A stretch of DNA of 39,023 nucleotides from Rhodothermales bacterium (GTDB taxonomy: Bacteria > Bacteroidota > Rhodothermia > Rhodothermales > UBA10348). Below are positions 5,933 through 39,023 of the stretch, one piece after another. The translations under genes were made by a program, and so were the position numbers. The notes beneath the pieces were generated by a model. It was not told the DNA's origin, searched no databases, and worked only from the letters and a program-made list of their open reading frames with translations. Within the stretch, counting starts at the first letter, position 1. The number at the start of each line of letters is the position of its first letter. Location: contig JAFMNH010000005.1 of assembly GCA_017859335.1 (NCBI GenBank), positions 1-39,023 of the forward strand, given 5' to 3'.

Positions 5933-8926
5933 ATGCCTGAAACCAACCGGGATTCGTTGTTCGGAGACAACACGACGGATGTTACCCGCGGTCTGACCAT
6001 CGACCGCGTATTTTCCACCCAGGGAGCCGACCCGTTCGACTCGGTCGAATGGGAGCGCCGGGATGCCTCGATCAAGAACTACACCGGCGAAGCGATCTTC
6101 GAGCAGACCAACGTTGAATTTCCGGTCGGCTGGAGCCAGCTGGCCACGAACGTGGTAGCCAGCAAGTATTTCTATGGAGAACTCTCCAAGAACGGTACCC
6201 ACCCGAGCAAAGGTGGGCGAGAGGACAGCCTTCGCCAGCTCATCCATCGCGTCACGAGGACCATCGCAGATTGGGGCACCAAACAGAACTACTTTGCCAC
6301 CAAGGAAGATGGCGAGACGTTCTACCAGGAACTGACCTGGCTCTGCGTCAACCAGTATGGCGCGTTCAACAGCCCGGTGTGGTTCAATGTGGGTCTGAAT
6401 CAGCAGTACGGTATCAAGGATTCGGGTGGAAAAACGATCTTCGGTTGGGACCCGAAGAAGAAGAAGGTAACGGCGGTGGACCCCTACATCCGCCCACAGG
6501 CGTCGGCGTGTTTCATCATCTCGGTGGAAGACTCCATCGACGATATCTGGCAGCTGATGGGCGAGTCAGCCCGGCTTTTCAAATTCGGGTCAGGCGTAGG
6601 CGCGGACTGGTCGAAACTGCGCTCAAGCCGTGAGAAACTTTCCGGGGGCGGTACGCCGTCCGGACCGGTGTCCTTCATGAAGGTGCAGGATGCCACGGGT
6701 GGCACGATCAAGTCCGGTGGCAAGACGCGCCGCGCTGCCATCATGCAGACGCTCAAGAGCTGGCATCCGGACATCATGGAGTTCGTCGAAGCCAAGCAGG
6801 AGGAAGAGAAGAAAGCATGGGCCCTCATCGAGGAGGGCTATGACGGATCGTTCAACGGTCCGGCCTATGGTTCTGTGGCCTTCCAGAACGTCAACCAGTC
6901 GGTTCGTGTGGATGACGCCCTCATGGCGGCAGCCGATCAAAATGCCCCCTATGGATTGCGCGCAGTGCAGTCAGGCGAGGTCATCGAGGAGGTGGACGCA
7001 GCGGGTATCCTGGAGAAAATTGCAGAGGGAACGCACGTTTGCGGCGACCCCGGTGTACAGTATGAGGATACCATCCAGCGCTGGCACACGTGCAAGAACA
7101 CGGACGCCATCAACTCGAGCAACCCGTGCTCGGAGTACATGTTCTTGGACGACTCGGCCTGCAATCTGGCCTCGCTCAACCTGCGCAAGTTCCAGAAGGA
7201 AGACGGTTCGTTCCACGTGGATCGCTTCCGCGCGGCTGCCCGTATCTACATCACGGCCATGGAGATCCTGGTCGACAACGCAGGATACCCGTCTGCACAG
7301 GTCGCAGAAAACTCCCACCTTTACCGCCCGCTCGGCCTCGGCTTTGCCAACCTGGGGGCTCTTCTGATGTCCATGGGTCTGCCCTACGACTCGGATGAGG
7401 GACGCGCGGTGGCCGGCGCCGTCATGGCCATCGAGCATTGCGAAGCCTATGCCCGCTCGGCCGAGATTGCGGCCAATCCCAAAATCGGGACGTTCGAAGG
7501 CTACGACGAAAACCGCGAGCCCTTCCTCGAGGTCATGCGCATGCACCGCGACGCCGTGGACACGATCCACACGTCCTGCCCCGAGTACCTTCTGGAAGCC
7601 GCGCGCGAGTCCGCTGACCGCATGGTGGCTCTTGGCGAAGTCCACGGATACCGCAATGCGCAAGCCACCGTGCTGGCACCGACCGGTACCATCGGCTTCA
7701 TGATGGACTGCGATACGACAGGTGTCGAACCGGACATCGCCTTGGTCAAGTACAAGCTGTTGGCAGGCAAGGGCGATGGCATGCTCAAGATCGTCAACCG
7801 TACGGTGCCCGAGGCACTGGAGCGCTTGGGCTATTCGGCCGAGGAAACCAAAGCCATCATCGACTTCATCGATGAGCAGGACACGATTGAGGGCGCCCCG
7901 GGGCTGCAAGAAGAGCACCTGCCCGTATTCGACTGTGCCTTCAAGCCCTTCAACGGCCACCGCTCGATCCATCACATGGGTCATATCAAGATGATGGCAG
8001 CCACGCAGCCGTTCATATCGGGTGCCATCTCCAAAACCGTCAACATGCCCGAGAGCACGACGGTCGAAGAGATTTCGGATGCCTACATGCAGGGATGGAA
8101 GCTCGGACTCAAGGCCGTGGCCATCTACCGCGAAAACTCCAAGCGCAGCCAGCCTCTGGCCACGTCCAAGGGCGGCAACACCAAGGGAAGCGTCAAGGAA
8201 GTCAGCTCAGGCGACGGTCAGGCGACAACACTAGAGCCAGAAGTAAAAGTTGTAGAGCGGGTCGTCCATAAATCGGTACGCCACCGCCTGCCAGATGAGC
8301 GTCCATCGCTGACCCACAAGTTCTCGATTGCCGGGCACGAGGGATACCTGCATATCGGTATGTATCCCGATACCAAGATGCCGGGTGAGATCTTCATCAC
8401 GATGGCCAAGGAGGGATCGACCATATCTGGTCTGATGGATGCCTTTGCCACGTCGATCTCGATCGCGCTACAGTACAACGTGCCTCTCGAGGACCTGTGC
8501 AAGAAGTTCAGCCACATGCGCTTCGAGCCCAACGGGTTCACCAACAACCGGCAGATCCCGATTGCCAAGTCCATCATGGACTACATCTTCCGCTACCTCT
8601 CCATGCGCTTCCTCTCCCAGCCTGTGGAAGAGGCAACAGCGAAGGAGCCCGAGCTTGAAGAGCCCGCATCGGATCTCGAACAGATTGACATGTTCACGGC
8701 GGAACCTACCGACAGCGCGGTGGACCCCCTCGTAGGCGATACGGTGGAAGACTTTCTCGGACGCTCCGGCGCCACGGCCACGGCAACGGCAACGGTAACG
8801 GAGACCGAAACCACCTTCGCCAACCAGGAGGATGCACCTCCCTGTTCAAATTGCGGCAGCATCACGGTGCGCAGCGGGGCATGCTACTCATGCCCGAACT
8901 GCGGAAACACCAGTGGGTGTGGATGA
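5933..8926 (+). CDS. nrdJ: Vitamin B12-dependent (class II) ribonucleoside-diphosphate reductase
   Basis: This 997-aa adenosylcobalamin-dependent reductase makes deoxyribonucleotides without oxygen or a separate radical-generating subunit. Key residues are visible. SACFI carries Cys193, and ACNLASLNL carries Cys410; together they form the redox pair. NPCSEY at 397-402 carries the thiyl-radical Cys399 and Glu401. APTGTIGFMMDCDTTG is the substrate-phosphate loop. After the barrel (to about residue 730) comes a linker and a TSCPD-like domain (HKFSIAGHEGYLHIG onward). An Ala/Thr-rich linker follows, then a C-terminal zinc-ribbon-like tail with paired cysteines (CSNC, CYSC, CGNTSGC) that probably shuttles electrons to the active site. 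Length is normal for long-form NrdJ and no intein is seen. The gene stands alone behind a long upstream region. No NrdR box or cobalamin riboswitch could be recognised. Confidence 0.97.
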   Translation: MPETNRDSLFGDNTTDVTRGLTIDRVFSTQGADPFDSVEWERRDASIKNYTGEAIFEQTNVEFPVGWSQLATNVVASKYFYGELSKNGTHPSKGGREDSLRQLIHRVTRTIADWGTKQNYFATKEDGETFYQELTWLCVNQYGAFNSPVWFNVGLNQQYGIKDSGGKTIFGWDPKKKKVTAVDPYIRPQASACFIISVEDSIDDIWQLMGESARLFKFGSGVGADWSKLRSSREKLSGGGTPSGPVSFMKVQDATGGTIKSGGKTRRAAIMQTLKSWHPDIMEFVEAKQEEEKKAWALIEEGYDGSFNGPAYGSVAFQNVNQSVRVDDALMAAADQNAPYGLRAVQSGEVIEEVDAAGILEKIAEGTHVCGDPGVQYEDTIQRWHTCKNTDAINSSNPCSEYMFLDDSACNLASLNLRKFQKEDGSFHVDRFRAAARIYITAMEILVDNAGYPSAQVAENSHLYRPLGLGFANLGALLMSMGLPYDSDEGRAVAGAVMAIEHCEAYARSAEIAANPKIGTFEGYDENREPFLEVMRMHRDAVDTIHTSCPEYLLEAARESADRMVALGEVHGYRNAQATVLAPTGTIGFMMDCDTTGVEPDIALVKYKLLAGKGDGMLKIVNRTVPEALERLGYSAEETKAIIDFIDEQDTIEGAPGLQEEHLPVFDCAFKPFNGHRSIHHMGHIKMMAATQPFISGAISKTVNMPESTTVEEISDAYMQGWKLGLKAVAIYRENSKRSQPLATSKGGNTKGSVKEVSSGDGQATTLEPEVKVVERVVHKSVRHRLPDERPSLTHKFSIAGHEGYLHIGMYPDTKMPGEIFITMAKEGSTISGLMDAFATSISIALQYNVPLEDLCKKFSHMRFEPNGFTNNRQIPIAKSIMDYIFRYLSMRFLSQPVEEATAKEPELEEPASDLEQIDMFTAEPTDSAVDPLVGDTVEDFLGRSGATATATATVTETETTFANQEDAPPCSNCGSITVRSGACYSCPNCGNTSGCG

Positions 8927-28802: not shown

Positions 28803-29065
28803 CAGATGGGAAGGGGCAGCGGGGGATGAACCGACAGGGCGATGTTACGCTGTGACCGCTTGCAAGCCAAGTGAGAATCCTGTGGAAGTTGACCCACCGG
28901 GAACGGCACCCACTCCCAGTGGAGGGATCCACCGGAGCCGCTCCCACGAGCGACGAACAAACCTCTCTGGAGCGGGTACACCCCTTTCCATCGCACACCA
29001 GCCCTTCGACGCTCCGCACTTCGATACCGTTTTTTCAAGGACTCTCGAACGAACCACGGAACCGA

Positions 29066-30637
29066 ATGGCAACGATTTCCCGCATCCTGTGGGCAGACGA
29101 TGAAATCGATCTGCTCAAACCCCACGTTCTGTTTCTCGAATCCAGGGGCTACGAGGTGACGAGCGTCACCAACGGCGCGGATGCCATCGATGAGGTCCGC
29201 AATGGGCGGTATGACCTCGTCCTGCTCGACGAACAGATGCCGGGCATGGGTGGTCTCGAGACGCTCACTGCCATAAAGGAAACAAGCAGCGACCTGCCGG
29301 TGGTCATGATCACCAAGAGCGAGGAGGAGCGCATCATGGAAGAGGCGCTCGGTGGAAAGATTTCGGATTACCTCACAAAACCGGTCAATCCCAGCCAGGT
29401 CCTGCTGACGTGCAAACGCATCCTCGATGGGCGCCGCATCGAATCCGAGAAAGCCTCCGAGAACTATCTCCAAGCCTTCGGAGAAATTTCGGCCCTTCTC
29501 ATGAATCCCCTCGATCACTCGGCATGGGTGGATCTTTACCAGCGACTCATCCGGTATGACGTCGAATTGGACTCGGATGAGGGCGTACGACAGGTCTTCG
29601 AAGACCAGGCCCGTCACGTGAATCAGGCCTTCTGCAAATACGTGGAGGAGGTCTATCCTCGCTGGATTTCCCGCGTGGATTCCGCACCCGACGAAGAGCG
29701 TCCTGCCCTTTCCCACGAGGTCATCCCCGAATGGGTCATTCCGGAGCTGAATCACGGAAAGCCTGTCGTCTTTTTCGTCATCGACTGCATGCGATGGGAC
29801 CAGTGGCTCGAATTCGAGCATTTGCTCTCCCCGCTCTTCACTATTTCGAGGGACTACCACTACTCCATCCTGCCAACAGCCACGCCTTACTCCCGCAACG
29901 CCATCTTTTCAGGACTGCTACCGGACGCTTTGGCCAAACGCTACCCCCGCATCTGGGCACAGGGCGAAGATGATGAGCACAGCCGTAACCGAAACGAAGA
30001 GCAATTCCTGAACGATTTACTCGAACGACGTCATATCCAGGCGCGCGTGCGCTACGACAAGTTGATCGGGAGCAAGGATGGTCGGGAGTTCCAGCAAACC
30101 GTCCACGATCTGCTCCAACACGATCTGAGCGCGGTTGTGGTCAACTTTGTCGATATCCTGGCCCACTCCCGATCCGACTCTGCCGTGCTCAAGGAAATTG
30201 CGCCGGACGAGCGGGCCTATCGAGCCCTGACGAGGACCTGGTTCGAACACTCGTGGCTATTCCAAGCCTTCCAGCAGCTGGCCGAGAGCGACTGTACCCT
30301 GGTCATCACAACCGATCACGGCGCCATACGCAGTCTCCACGACACGAAAGTCATCGGTGATCGCGAAACCTCGACTGCTCTGAGATACAAATACGGAAAG
30401 AATCTGAAGTGTGATGAGCGTCATGCCGTCCTCGTGCGGGATCCTTCCACCTTCGGACTGCCTTCGGACCATCGCAATACCAATTTCATCATTGCCAAGG
30501 AAGACTACTACTTCGTGTATCCGACGAATTACAACCGGTATCTGAACAAGTATCGCGATACCATGCAACATGGTGGGATCTCGATGGAAGAAATGATCCT
30601 TCCCGTGATGACGCTTCGCCCACGGTCCGCAGGCTGA
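29066..30637 (+). CDS. porX: PorX-like response regulator with PglZ (alkaline phosphatase-superfamily) domain
   Basis: This 523-aa protein starts at 29066 with MATISRILWADDEIDLLKPH. Residues 1-120 form a receiver domain: DDE acidic pocket at 11-13, phospho-acceptor Asp55 in LLDEQMPG, conserved Thr in MITKSEEE, and Lys in YLTKPV. A helical linker (about 130-230) leads to a PglZ domain. Its metal site shows VVFFVIDCMRWDQW (Asp), TPYSRNAIFSG (likely Thr/Ser nucleophile), VNFVDILAHSRSD and VITTDHGAI (Asp-His). There is no DNA-binding domain. This matches PorX, the T9SS response regulator in Porphyromonas and relatives whose PglZ part is a phosphodiesterase. It is 3 bases before tsaE. No PorY kinase or sigma factor SigP is visible. 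Family and domains are firm; T9SS control is inferred. Confidence 0.93.
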   Translation: MATISRILWADDEIDLLKPHVLFLESRGYEVTSVTNGADAIDEVRNGRYDLVLLDEQMPGMGGLETLTAIKETSSDLPVVMITKSEEERIMEEALGGKISDYLTKPVNPSQVLLTCKRILDGRRIESEKASENYLQAFGEISALLMNPLDHSAWVDLYQRLIRYDVELDSDEGVRQVFEDQARHVNQAFCKYVEEVYPRWISRVDSAPDEERPALSHEVIPEWVIPELNHGKPVVFFVIDCMRWDQWLEFEHLLSPLFTISRDYHYSILPTATPYSRNAIFSGLLPDALAKRYPRIWAQGEDDEHSRNRNEEQFLNDLLERRHIQARVRYDKLIGSKDGREFQQTVHDLLQHDLSAVVVNFVDILAHSRSDSAVLKEIAPDERAYRALTRTWFEHSWLFQAFQQLAESDCTLVITTDHGAIRSLHDTKVIGDRETSTALRYKYGKNLKCDERHAVLVRDPSTFGLPSDHRNTNFIIAKEDYYFVYPTNYNRYLNKYRDTMQHGGISMEEMILPVMTLRPRSAG

Positions 30638-32706: not shown

Positions 32707-34557
32707 ATGAAAATTGCAGAACTACAGGACAAGAAACTTCCTGAACTGAAAGAAATCGCAAAGCAGATGAACCTCGGTGGGGTCTCTGCTATGAGAAAAC
32801 AGGATCTGATCTACCTCATCCTTGAGGCAAAGGCCGAAGCCGCAGCGGGCTCTAATCGACGACGAGAAGAAGCCTCGCGCAAGCAGGAAGCTGCTGGCGG
32901 TTCACCGGATGCCGGTCCCTCATCTCAGCGTACTCGCGGCAAAAAGTCTGAAAGTGGCGGTCGAGACGAAGCCAAGCGCGGTCGCGGAGGTTCTTCCAGA
33001 GGCGAGGAATCCAACAATGATCGCTCCTCGGGCAGGCCCAAGCGTGGCGGTCGCAACGCGAATCAGGAGGAGGCCGAGCAGCAGAAACGACATCCCCGTC
33101 GCGGGCGTGGAGAGGACGACGCCGATGCCGCACGTGGTGACAACCGGGGCAGGCGGCGCAACCGGCCGGAGAATGGAAGCCGCGACGAGCGAGGTCGCGG
33201 TGGCAGGGACGAGGATCGTGGCCGCCGGCGTGAGGAGGATGATAATCGCGGTAACCGCCGGGGTGGACGTGGGCGTGATGATAATCGCGGAAACGAGCGC
33301 GGCAATAATGACCGGGACAATGACCGCGGTGGACGCCGCAGCCGTCGGGACCGCAACCGCGAAGCGCGGGAAGAACGTCGCAAGGAGGTCTACGCCGATC
33401 AGCCCGAATACATGCAGGAGTACAACCCGAAAGAGGTCGAGCTCGATGGCATGATCCGCAAGGTGGGGGTGTTGCAGATCCTGCCCGATGGGTACGGGTT
33501 CCTGCGCAGCGCAGAGTTCAACTACCTGCCGAGCCCTGACGACATTTACGTCTCTCCCTCCCAGATCAAGCGCTTCGCCCTCAAGATGGGTGACACCGTG
33601 GACGGTGAAATCCGCCCACCCAAGGAAGGCGAGCGGTATTTCGCCCTGATTCAGGTCAACTCCATCAACGGTCGCGCGCCGGGCGACATCGACGAGCGTG
33701 CGAGCTTCGATTATCTGACGCCCTATTATCCGGAGGAGCAACTTGTCCTGCAGACGCTTGGAGGGGAGTACTCAACCCGGGTCATGGATCTTTTCTCTCC
33801 TATTGGAAAAGGCCAGCGTGCGCTCATCGTAGCGCAGCCCAAGACGGGTAAGACGATCCTTCTCCAGAAGATTGCCAATGCCATCACGACCAATCATCCG
33901 GAGTGTCATCTCCTGATCCTCTTGGTCGATGAACGGCCCGAGGAGGTCACGGACATGCGCCGTCACGTCAAGGGCGAGGTCATTGCATCCACCTTTGACC
34001 AAGACCCGGAAAAACACGTCGAGGTAGCCGATATCGTTCTGCAGAAAGCAAAGCGCCTCGTGGAAGCCGGTCAGGATGTGGTCATCCTGCTCGACTCGAT
34101 CACCCGTCTGGCCCGTGCGCACAACGCCGTGACGACGTCGACCGGAAAAACGCTCTCCGGTGGTATGGAAGCCGGCGCGCTTCGGGGACCCAAGCGCTTC
34201 TTCGGAGCGGCCCGCAACATCGAGGAAGGCGGTTCGCTGACCATCATCGGGACGGCGCTCATCGATACGGGAAGCCGCATGGACGAGGTCATCTTCGAAG
34301 AGTTCAAAGGAACGGGCAACTCGGAAATCGTACTCGATCGTGAATTGGCCGACCGCCGCATTTTCCCGGCTATCCACATCGTGAAATCAGGTACGCGGCG
34401 CGAAGAGCTCCTGATTCCCGAGGCCAAACTCAAGCGTATCTGGATCCTGCGCAAGCTCCTGGCAGACATGAACCCCATCGATGCCATGAACTTCCTCCTC
34501 GACAAGATGCGTGGAACGAAGAAAAATGACGAGTTTCTGGTTACGATGAACTCGTAA
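32707..34557 (+). CDS. rho: Transcription termination factor Rho with long disordered N-terminal insertion
   Basis: This 616-aa Rho (E. coli: 419 aa) starts with a normal SAP-like Rho_N helix bundle ([19 protein letters not shown], to about residue 43). Residues 44-235 are an extreme low-complexity stretch of Arg, Asp, Asn, Gly and Glu ([20 protein letters not shown] style) with no predicted fold. The cold-shock RNA-binding domain follows ([30 protein letters not shown]), then the hexameric ATPase: Walker A AQPKTGKT at 376-383 (more often APPKAGKT), [29 protein letters not shown] (Walker B), SGGMEAGAL (Q-loop region), [25 protein letters not shown]. Rho in Bacteroides has a comparable disordered region that drives phase separation. 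A predicted promoter lies upstream and an intrinsic terminator follows 26 bases after the stop. Confidence 0.97.
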
Positions 34558-36086: not shown

Positions 36087-39023
36087 TTACTTGAGCAGCG
36101 TCATTGTTTTCGATACCACGCCGGCTGCCGTCTGCAGGCGGTAGATGTACATACCCGAAGCCAGGTTCGAAGCGTCAAAGCCCGTCTGGAACGTACCGGC
36201 CGGCTGAATGCCATCAACCAGTACCGCGATCTCACGACCGAGCACGTCATGGACCGACAGGCGCACCTCCTGGCTCTGATCAAGACGGAAAGCGATGGTC
36301 GTCGTCGGATTGAACGGGTTCGGGAAGTTCTGCGCCAGTTCTACCTGCTGAGGGAGCTGGGCAAAGCCATCCTCCACGTCGACTGTCTGGCCCGTGGCGA
36401 TGTTGCCGAAGTAGCCGGCGTGTGCCAGGGCGGTCCAGCCAGCAGCCCAGTTGTCGCGACCGAAGGCACCCACAAAGTCCACCGGCGTGTAGAAGGCGTC
36501 GTTTGGATACGCGGCGCGCGTCATGGTAAAGGCCGGGCTGTTGCCCGTCGGGCGCGGATCAAGGCCACCCGAAGGCGACGTAGAGCGCTCGATACCGGCA
36601 ATCATCGGATCCTCGACCACGTTGCCGTTGGCCACGAGGTAGTCGATGATGGCTGCCTGGTTCTCCAGACCCGGGTTCACGAACTGCGCCGGTGCGTTGC
36701 CCGCACCGAACCCGTACCACAGGTTGTGCGTCAGGCCCAGGTCGCCCGCTTCAAAACGCTGACGGCTGTCGAGCGGCTTCGAACCGGTGTTGTCGATGTC
36801 CTCGATCGTCAACGCGTAGCCACCCGAGGTGGAGTTGTAGTCCGTAAAGATCGAGTTGTGGTAGAAACCACCCGTGTTGTCACGGAACATCAGCATCTCG
36901 GCGCGGTCGCCGTCGGGCGTGTTCGAAGCGCCGCCACCGATGTAGGTGGCGTTGTACACATACGGCTTGGCAAAGGGCTCCGTGTTCTCGTCGCCACCAG
37001 CGCCATCCTGCTCGGCCGCACCACCAGCTGCATCCGTGCCCTGGATCACGAACCAGAACTGACCCTTACCACGGTAGCCCTGATCCCAGTCCACAGCGTC
37101 ATCCGAGTTGAAGGCCGAGACGAAGTACTTCAGGTTCACGTTGCCGCCGAAGAACTCGACGCCGTCATCGCCCGAGGAGTAGGACTCGATGTACTCGAGC
37201 GTCGTACCGGCGCCAACACCACCAAGGGTAAGACCCTGGATCTCGTTGCCGTCCGACTCACCGATGTTGATACCCGTGTGGCGGATGGAGACGTAGCGCA
37301 TGATGCCCGAGGAGTCGTTGTCGTCCGTACCGCCATACTGGGCGCGCGTGTCACCGCTCGGAAGGATCTCGTTCACGCCTTCGATCTCTTTCCAGTCGCC
37401 CGAAGCGTCGCCGGCGTTGTTCGTGACGGCCGCGCCCAGGAGGATGATGCCGCCCCACAGACCACGATCTTCGTACGTCAGGAGGTCAGCCGAAGAGATG
37501 TTGTCCTGCACCGAGGTGAAGATGATGGGGGCCGTAGCCGTGCCTTCAGCATAGATCTTGCCGCCGCGGGCTACCATGAGGGCCGAAGCGTCAACGCTCT
37601 GGCCATCCTGGGCCTTGACCACCGTTCCGGCTTCGATGTGCAGCTCAGCACCGTCCTCGACGATGACCAAGCCGCTAAGGACATAGACGTTGTCTGCGGA
37701 CCAGCGCACGACGTCGCCAGCGTTTATGTCAGCGTCCGTGACCGTGACCGTGGGTCGGGACTCCACATCACCATCCGGTTTGTCGAAGTAGCCAGCCGCA
37801 TCCAGGGCGGTCCAACCGAGGGCCCAGTTGCCACGACCGAAAGCGCCTACGAAGTCAACCGGCGTGTAGAACGCATCGTTCGGATACGCGGCGCGGTCCA
37901 TCGAGAAGGCAGGCGAGTCGGCAGAAGGGCGCGGATCCATGGCGCCGCTCGGGCTCGTTGAACGCTCAACGCCGCGAATCATTGGATCCTCGACCACGTT
38001 GCCGTTGGCTACGAGGTAGTCGATGATGGCTGCCTGGTTCTCCAGACCCGGGTTCACGAACTGCGCCGGTGCGTTGCCCGCACCGAACCCGTACCACAGG
38101 TTGTGCGTCAGGCCCAGGTCGCCCGCTTCAAAACGCTGACGGCTGTCGAGCGGCTTCGAACCGGTGTTGTCGATGTCCTCGATCGTCAACGCGTAGCCAC
38201 CCGAGGTGGAGTTGTAGTCCGTAAAGATCGAGTTGTGGTAGAAACCACCCGTGTTGTCACGGAACATCAGCATCTCGGCGCGGTCGCCGTCGGGCGTGTT
38301 CGAAGCGCCGCCACCGATGTAGGTGGCGTTGTACACATACGGCTTGGCAAAGGGCTCCGTGTTCTCGTCGCCACCAGCGCCATCCTGCTCGGCCGCACCA
38401 CCAGCTGCATCCGTGCCCTGGATCACGAACCAGAACTGACCCTTACCACGGTAGCCCTGATCCCAGTCCACAGCGTCATCCGAGTTGAAGGCCGAGACGA
38501 AGTACTTCAGGTTCACGTTGCCGCCGAAGAACTCGACGCCGTCATCGCCCGAGGAGTAGGACTCGATGTACTCGAGCGTCGTACCGGCGCCAACACCACC
38601 AAGGGTAAGACCCTGGATCTCGTTGCCGTCCGACTCACCGATGTTGATACCCGTGTGGCGGATGGAGACGTAGCGCATGATGCCCGAGGAGTCGTTGTCG
38701 TCCGTACCGCCATACTGGGCGCGCGTGTCACCGCTCGGAAGGATCTCGTTCACGCCTTCGATCTCTTTCCAGTCGCCCGAAGCGTCGCCGGCGTTGTTCG
38801 TGACGGCCGCGCCCAGGAGGATGATGCCGCCCCACAGACCACGATCTTCGTACGTCAGGAGGTCAGCCGAAGAGATGTTGTCCTGCACCGAGGTGAAGAT
38901 GATGGGGGCCGTAGCCGTGCCTTCAGCATAGATCTTGCCGCCGCGGGCTACCATGAGGGCCGAAGCGTCAACGCTCTGGCCATCCTGGGCCTTGACCACC
39001 GTTCCGGCTTCGATGTGCAGCTC
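36087..39023 (-). CDS. Giant T9SS-secreted protein with tandem 459-aa modules (5' end outside window)
   Basis: This reverse-strand gene is open to the window edge; 978 residues are visible. It contains one complete and one partial copy of a 459-residue module. The module has a hydrophobic beta-rich start (VLSGLVIVEDGAELHIEAGTVVKAQDGQ), then ALMVARGGKIYAEGTATAPIIFTS, then GGIILLGAAVTNN, then repeated Gly/Asn/Asp-rich strands (GGTDDNDSSGIMRYVSIRHTG, SSGDDGVEFFGGNVN) resembling a right-handed parallel beta-helix. It ends with GNWALGWTALDAAGYFDKP-like text. The final about 85 residues are a T9SS type A sorting domain: ELAQNFPNPFNPTTTIAFRL, VHDVLGREIAVLV, ASGMYIYRLQT. The modules are negatively charged and surface-exposed; ligands are unknown. 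The DNA repeat is described separately. Confidence 0.92.
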   Translation of the reverse strand, partial: ELHIEAGTVVKAQDGQSVDASALMVARGGKIYAEGTATAPIIFTSVQDNISSADLLTYEDRGLWGGIILLGAAVTNNAGDASGDWKEIEGVNEILPSGDTRAQYGGTDDNDSSGIMRYVSIRHTGINIGESDGNEIQGLTLGGVGAGTTLEYIESYSSGDDGVEFFGGNVNLKYFVSAFNSDDAVDWDQGYRGKGQFWFVIQGTDAAGGAAEQDGAGGDENTEPFAKPYVYNATYIGGGASNTPDGDRAEMLMFRDNTGGFYHNSIFTDYNSTSGGYALTIEDIDNTGSKPLDSRQRFEAGDLGLTHNLWYGFGAGNAPAQFVNPGLENQAAIIDYLVANGNVVEDPMIRGVERSTSPSGAMDPRPSADSPAFSMDRAAYPNDAFYTPVDFVGAFGRGNWALGWTALDAAGYFDKPDGDVESRPTVTVTDADINAGDVVRWSADNVYVLSGLVIVEDGAELHIEAGTVVKAQDGQSVDASALMVARGGKIYAEGTATAPIIFTSVQDNISSADLLTYEDRGLWGGIILLGAAVTNNAGDASGDWKEIEGVNEILPSGDTRAQYGGTDDNDSSGIMRYVSIRHTGINIGESDGNEIQGLTLGGVGAGTTLEYIESYSSGDDGVEFFGGNVNLKYFVSAFNSDDAVDWDQGYRGKGQFWFVIQGTDAAGGAAEQDGAGGDENTEPFAKPYVYNATYIGGGASNTPDGDRAEMLMFRDNTGGFYHNSIFTDYNSTSGGYALTIEDIDNTGSKPLDSRQRFEAGDLGLTHNLWYGFGAGNAPAQFVNPGLENQAAIIDYLVANGNVVEDPMIAGIERSTSPSGGLDPRPTGNSPAFTMTRAAYPNDAFYTPVDFVGAFGRDNWAAGWTALAHAGYFGNIATGQTVDVEDGFAQLPQQVELAQNFPNPFNPTTTIAFRLDQSQEVRLSVHDVLGREIAVLVDGIQPAGTFQTGFDASNLASGMYIYRLQTAAGVVSKTMTLLK
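36606..39023. repeat. Tandem direct DNA repeat, period 1377 bp
   Basis: Positions 36634-37646 and 38011-39023 are identical as far as I can compare by eye (1013 bp, offset exactly 1377 bp = 459 codons). The first differences to the left are single substitutions at 36633/38010 and 36606/37983; further left the copies diverge clearly. The second copy is cut by the window end. This is coding sequence, so the repeat is an internal gene duplication. Confidence 0.95.

Follow-up and report, generated by a model that had tools for sequence, protein, structure and literature searches.

In the Ilm adhesin of Yersinia ruckeri, tandem Ig-like domains are encoded by intragenic repeats that are identical in DNA, and the number of these repeats is lost in short-read assemblies (PMC6868369). 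In spider silk genes, repeats within one gene are reported to be homogenised, a case of concerted evolution (PMC3933166). The locus described here, from a Rhodothermales bacterium (G000), resembles Ilm in that a putative surface protein carries DNA-identical intragenic repeats whose copy number is hidden by short reads; however, Ilm comprises more than 20 repeats, each of ~300 bp, whereas two repeats (as assembled) of 1377 bp are found here, with a predicted beta-helix instead of an Ig-like fold, export by the type IX secretion system (T9SS) and diverged edges flanking an identical core. With the silk genes, the homogenisation of intragenic repeats is a common trait, while our case differs in being bacterial, in having only two large modules and in having boundaries mapped via conflicting genealogies. 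A literature search combining T9SS, tandem repeats and gene conversion found no paper. Both homogenised intragenic repeats and their loss in short reads are already known; what is new is an example in an uncharacterised protein family.

The window, i.e., the whole 39,023-nt stretch of DNA that was analysed, forms the start (positions 1-39023) of a scaffold 47,049 bases long and ends within the gene in question (Table 1). A shift scan detected an exact run of 1013 bp when the offset was 1377 bp (459 codons), compared with a longest run of 13 bp at all other shifts, in agreement with the initial annotation, which had claimed 1013 identical bp between copies 1377 bp apart. To read 1013 bp as the repeat length rather than as a minimum takes at face value a 55-nt overlap across the assembly gap described below. 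Tandem Repeats Finder was blank for this spacing, its period limit of 500 being smaller than 1377, and a generic repeat search gave 300 nt at 81% where the shift scan recovered the full run.

The run is bounded on one side by a mismatch at 36633, past which 26 further bases match before divergence sets in, and on the other side by a mismatch at 37647, followed by 38 matching bases and then divergence; past both boundaries divergence climbs at once. With the gap closed in the simplest way, the module edges outside the run show 76.7% identity on the N-terminal side (120 nt) and 75.2% on the C-terminal side (226 nt). The latter is the diverged segment that had been reported to the left of the repeat, and the two peptides quoted for it, RGVERSTSPSGAMDPRPSADS and AGIERSTSPSGGLDPRPTGNS, were both found in the translation. 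The sharp identity boundary claimed there was also recovered; moreover, the right boundary, which the initial annotation had not covered, is sharp too, as seen beyond the window, which stops at the gap. The aligned module of 1359 nt contains 84 differences, none of which lies inside the exact run, and when 84 differences were placed at random over the module in 20,000 trials, the maximum clean run was 207 bp.

Table 1 Features of the gene part within the window (all coordinates refer to the window).
Feature	Position	Strand	Remark
Gene part in window	36087..39023	-	Last 978 codons of a cargo gene (T9SS type A)
T9SS type A C-terminal sorting domain (Por_Secre_tail)	36105..36326	-	TIGR04183, PF18962
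Module 2, C-terminal copy, predicted right-handed parallel beta-helix	36402..37769	-	
Module 2 diverged C-terminal edge	36403..36633	-	Groups with last module of sister species
Module 2 homogenised core	36634..37646	-	Identical to 38011-39023
Junction: C-terminal edge of module 1, 6-residue linker and N-terminal edge of module 2	37647..38010	-	
Module 1 diverged C-terminal edge	37780..38010	-	Groups with module 1 of sister species
Module 1 core	38011..39023	-	Identical to 36634-37646; last base is the window end, at the 100-N gap

Directly after the last base of the repeat, the scaffold carries 100 N (39024-39123), and the sequence after the gap opens with the repeat's last 55 nt before departing from it, which substantiates the assembly break at a repeat that had been suspected from the window end. 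Such a shared end next to a gap is typical of a de Bruijn graph that stops where a repeat ends, and k = 55 is a common assembler setting. A short-read graph is unable to count the passes through a loop of repeat, junction and repeat, which would explain why the assembly broke at the repeat end. Joining the contigs on the 55-nt overlap yielded a single open frame of 1046 aa, in frame and complete, which starts with an ATG at scaffold 39382 on the - strand, past the gap, and consists of a signal-peptide-like start, module 1, module 2 (~453 aa each) and a T9SS type A tail, in this order. The N-terminus beyond the gap reads MQRALRTLF...AQ, with the stretch MQRALRTLFAMLIMVGFTTSTTLAQ judged by eye to be signal-peptide-like. 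The tandem itself exists, because the junction, in which a module end is directly joined to a module start, is present and has counterparts in the sister species (G001) and in a further species of the genus (G002). Two modules are the minimum count, and we infer a true copy number of two. A 178-nt match at 39124-39301 had suggested a third module behind the gap; it proved to be the N-terminal start of module 1.

The C-terminal sorting domain scored 38.5 bits with TIGR04183 (cut-off 23) and 34.4 bits with PF18962 (cut-off 27; E 2.7e-8), so that the Por_Secre_tail of a T9SS type A cargo lies above cut-off. The genome encodes a T9SS, with SprA at 1946 bits (cut-off 200), 43 matches over cut-off to the tail domain TIGR04183 and, at 28871-30637 on the + strand, the T9SS response regulator PorX (NF052313, 717 bits). 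The gene is best explained as encoding a surface protein that is secreted and consists of two beta-helix modules of ~453 residues in tandem, followed by the T9SS type A sorting tail; it is like other T9SS type A cargo proteins in its sorting domain and in a genome with SprA and PorX, but unlike them in that its module matches no Pfam or NCBIfam family. As to the other genes in the window, porX lies ~5.5 kb from the cargo gene and adjoins tsaE and folC; transcription termination factor Rho (32707-34557, +) has 616 aa, about 200 residues above the family model (413), with a long insertion between its N-terminal and RNA-binding domains; and a vitamin B12-dependent ribonucleotide reductase is encoded at 5933-8926 (+).

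Searches of the module against Pfam and NCBIfam models gave no family match, and Pfam across 46 members of the module family gave none apart from one marginal unrelated hit. AlphaFold run on the 46 aligned modules returned a parallel beta-helix (pLDDT 93.6). VIA-align matched the modelled module to right-handed parallel beta-helix folds with Z of about 18-23 over 260-300 residues at 6-16% identity; Foldseek gave E no better than 1e-3, and a sequence profile search of the PDB with the module found no real match. The module is accordingly a predicted right-handed parallel beta-helix, with the handedness taken from the fold matches; it is like phage tailspikes, alginate epimerases, PL6 lyases and pertactin in fold but unlike them in sequence, identity being at most 16%. 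An alginate lyase/epimerase assignment (PL6, AlgE) would be tentative, with resemblance seen in the fold and no match to the family profile among the 46 members. The acidic residues D201, D202, E205, D223, D227, D229 and E253 are invariant and fall in groups 20-30 residues apart; because of this spacing, the groups may occupy adjacent coils and make up a single patch. A TonB-dependent receptor of 1000 aa is encoded directly upstream of the module gene (scaffold 39543-42545; L009:3544-6546, -). A same-strand receptor gene occupies this place in 39 of the 57 relatives with enough upstream DNA, and the module protein is therefore likely a surface partner of the neighbouring receptor. It probably contacts a glycan or other polymer.

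The module is widespread, with matches in 88 of 114 Rhodothermales genomes and at least 572 matches in many phyla. Tandem genes with two or three modules account for about 20 of 80 named loci, and in most of them the edges evolve faster than the core. Within the genus, where one genome per species was compared, G003 and G005 carry a single module each, G001 carries two on one contig, and the broken gene of G002 holds at least part of two, so that the number per species is 1 or at least 2. In a tree of 63 modules, most tandem modules cluster by gene; the genes L097 and L098 of Neolewinella (three modules) and Lewinella (two modules) are a counter-example in that their modules keep positional orthology, and not every tandem in the family is therefore homogenised.

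Core and edges of the G000 modules differ in history. The dS between the two modules falls from 1.5 in the N-terminal edge to 0 in the core and is back at 0.9 in the C-terminal edge. The cores of the two modules within a genome are 100% identical in G000, 89.9% in G001 and 89.6% in G002 (over 201 nt), and the G000 core is 77-87% identical to that of any other species of the genus. For the C-terminal edge of G000 and G001, by comparison, identity at the same position (77.9 and 80.1%) exceeds that between paralogues (75.2 and 68.6%). AU tests on four sequences from G000 and G001 rejected positional pairing for the core (p 2e-9), which pairs by genome, although the two identical G000 copies make a positional signal impossible by construction and the pairing also relies on correct assembly; for the C-terminal edge, pairing by genome was rejected (p 0.003) and pairing is by position. 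Because these two tests oppose each other, the C-terminal boundary is a border between two histories. The N-terminal edge pairs by genome (AU test against positional pairing, p 0.011); it agrees with the core, not with the C-terminal edge, and the edges do not have one common history. In the wider tree, the G001 core pairing received weak support (70.6/66). The site pattern of the C-terminal edge favours positional orthology 24:9, largely from amino-acid-changing sites; synonymous sites alone split 8 to 7, so position-specific selection could contribute to this signal. Furthermore, the C-terminal edges of module 1 in G000 and G001 have derived blocks in common, part of which is present in the G002 junction. 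Conflicting genealogies inside and outside the tract, as expected under gene conversion, were thus found for core versus C-terminal edge, with synonymous sites alone not decisive.

These results are probably explained by an old duplication, followed by homogenisation of the core through gene conversion or unequal exchange. The module would have been duplicated before G000, G001 and probably G002 diverged. Recombination between the long direct repeats, homologous and presumably of the RecA type, would then have replaced ~1 kb in the middle of one module by the matching sequence of its partner, and gene conversion or cycles of unequal exchange would give the same outcome. The edges outside the exchanged tract would have retained the older divergence, hence the sharp boundaries. 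The initial annotation had proposed gene conversion or a later internal expansion: conversion or unequal exchange is favoured by the conflict between core and C-terminal edge and by relatives, including the single-contig genome G030, while expansion is unnecessary for two copies but may still bear on the true copy number. A counter-point is that core and edges differ in constraint too.

Independent cases were found among the relatives. G030, a single contig of 4.8 Mb with ~50% protein identity, has the same architecture, its two modules sharing an exact run of 891 bp. A tract test that used only codons whose amino acid is the same in both copies, which excludes protein constraint as the source of the tract, gave p 0.0002 for G030, G108, G055 (single contig; a 44-codon synonymous tract) and G000, and p 0.003 for a Verrucomicrobiae chromosome; 33 pairs were tested, and p values near 0.03 are to be disregarded. 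The same-codon run of 328 in G000, which is subject to the assembly caveat, is an identity tract with boundaries beyond protein constraint. The two-module gene of G052 showed no synonymous tract, and most other tandem genes were not significant in this test. G052 and G055 (L168, L169) are near-closed genomes with two-module genes.

The exact identity of the G000 cores is an upper bound on their true similarity and may be partly assembler-imposed, since a single graph path could have been written out in both places. That the true cores differ slightly and were merged by a de Bruijn graph (k about 55) is a real if somewhat doubtful possibility, and one compatible with homogenisation, as both can hold. 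It would account for the break exactly at the repeat end with its shared 55 nt and 100 N, and contigs also end at repeated stretches of the module gene in G002 (63 nt), G016 (109 nt) and G029 (100 nt; spacing 1374); at the contig ends in G053 and G039 the overlap is absent, and in G107 it is 24 nt only. Collapse of tandem repeats is, moreover, documented (PMC6868369). However, merging needs near-identical copies anyway, and the edges, at ~75%, stayed separate; the exact run of G030 lies within a single-contig chromosome; and the two-module structure itself is evident from the junction sequence. Only contig breaks with exact shared ends were used as evidence here; a rough hand estimate from contig counts gave no clear excess of contig ends in the module gene over the order.

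Homogenisation is likewise compatible with an array longer than assembled, in which the loop of repeat, junction and repeat is traversed two or more times; both can hold. The assembler halted at a fork and three-module genes occur in relatives, but closing the gap in the simplest way leaves a complete, in-frame gene, the sister species has two modules in one contig, and no three-module gene was present among the Rhodothermales genes examined, which makes more than two modules rather unlikely. A recent duplication of the whole module in this lineage, followed by fast edge divergence under relaxed or position-specific selection and involving no conversion, seems improbable: nearly every tandem gene of the family does have fast-evolving edges and the positional signal of the C-terminal edge is mostly nonsynonymous, but a dS of 0 over 240 synonymous sites is incompatible with a dS of 0.9-1.5 at either edge of those very copies, and the derived blocks common to the module-1 C-terminal edges of G000 and G001 also argue against it. 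Purifying selection alone, acting on a core that is the conserved beta-helix, is already refuted, unless the assembler made the identity, by 0 synonymous differences among about 240 synonymous sites, and the cores of other species in the genus differ by 13-23% in DNA.

Overall, the probable homogenisation of an old tandem provides a clean case in which conversion boundaries are mappable inside one bacterial gene and separable from assembly effects, and the tandem members of this large uncharacterised family can be miscounted in metagenome-assembled genomes. More speculatively, this beta-helix module, which is widespread and coupled to TonB-dependent receptors both within and outside the FCB group, may undergo repeated rounds of duplication and of re-homogenisation through recombination. 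The number and sequence of the modules would then be a rapidly adjustable surface trait of uncultured bacteria that is hidden by short-read assemblies.
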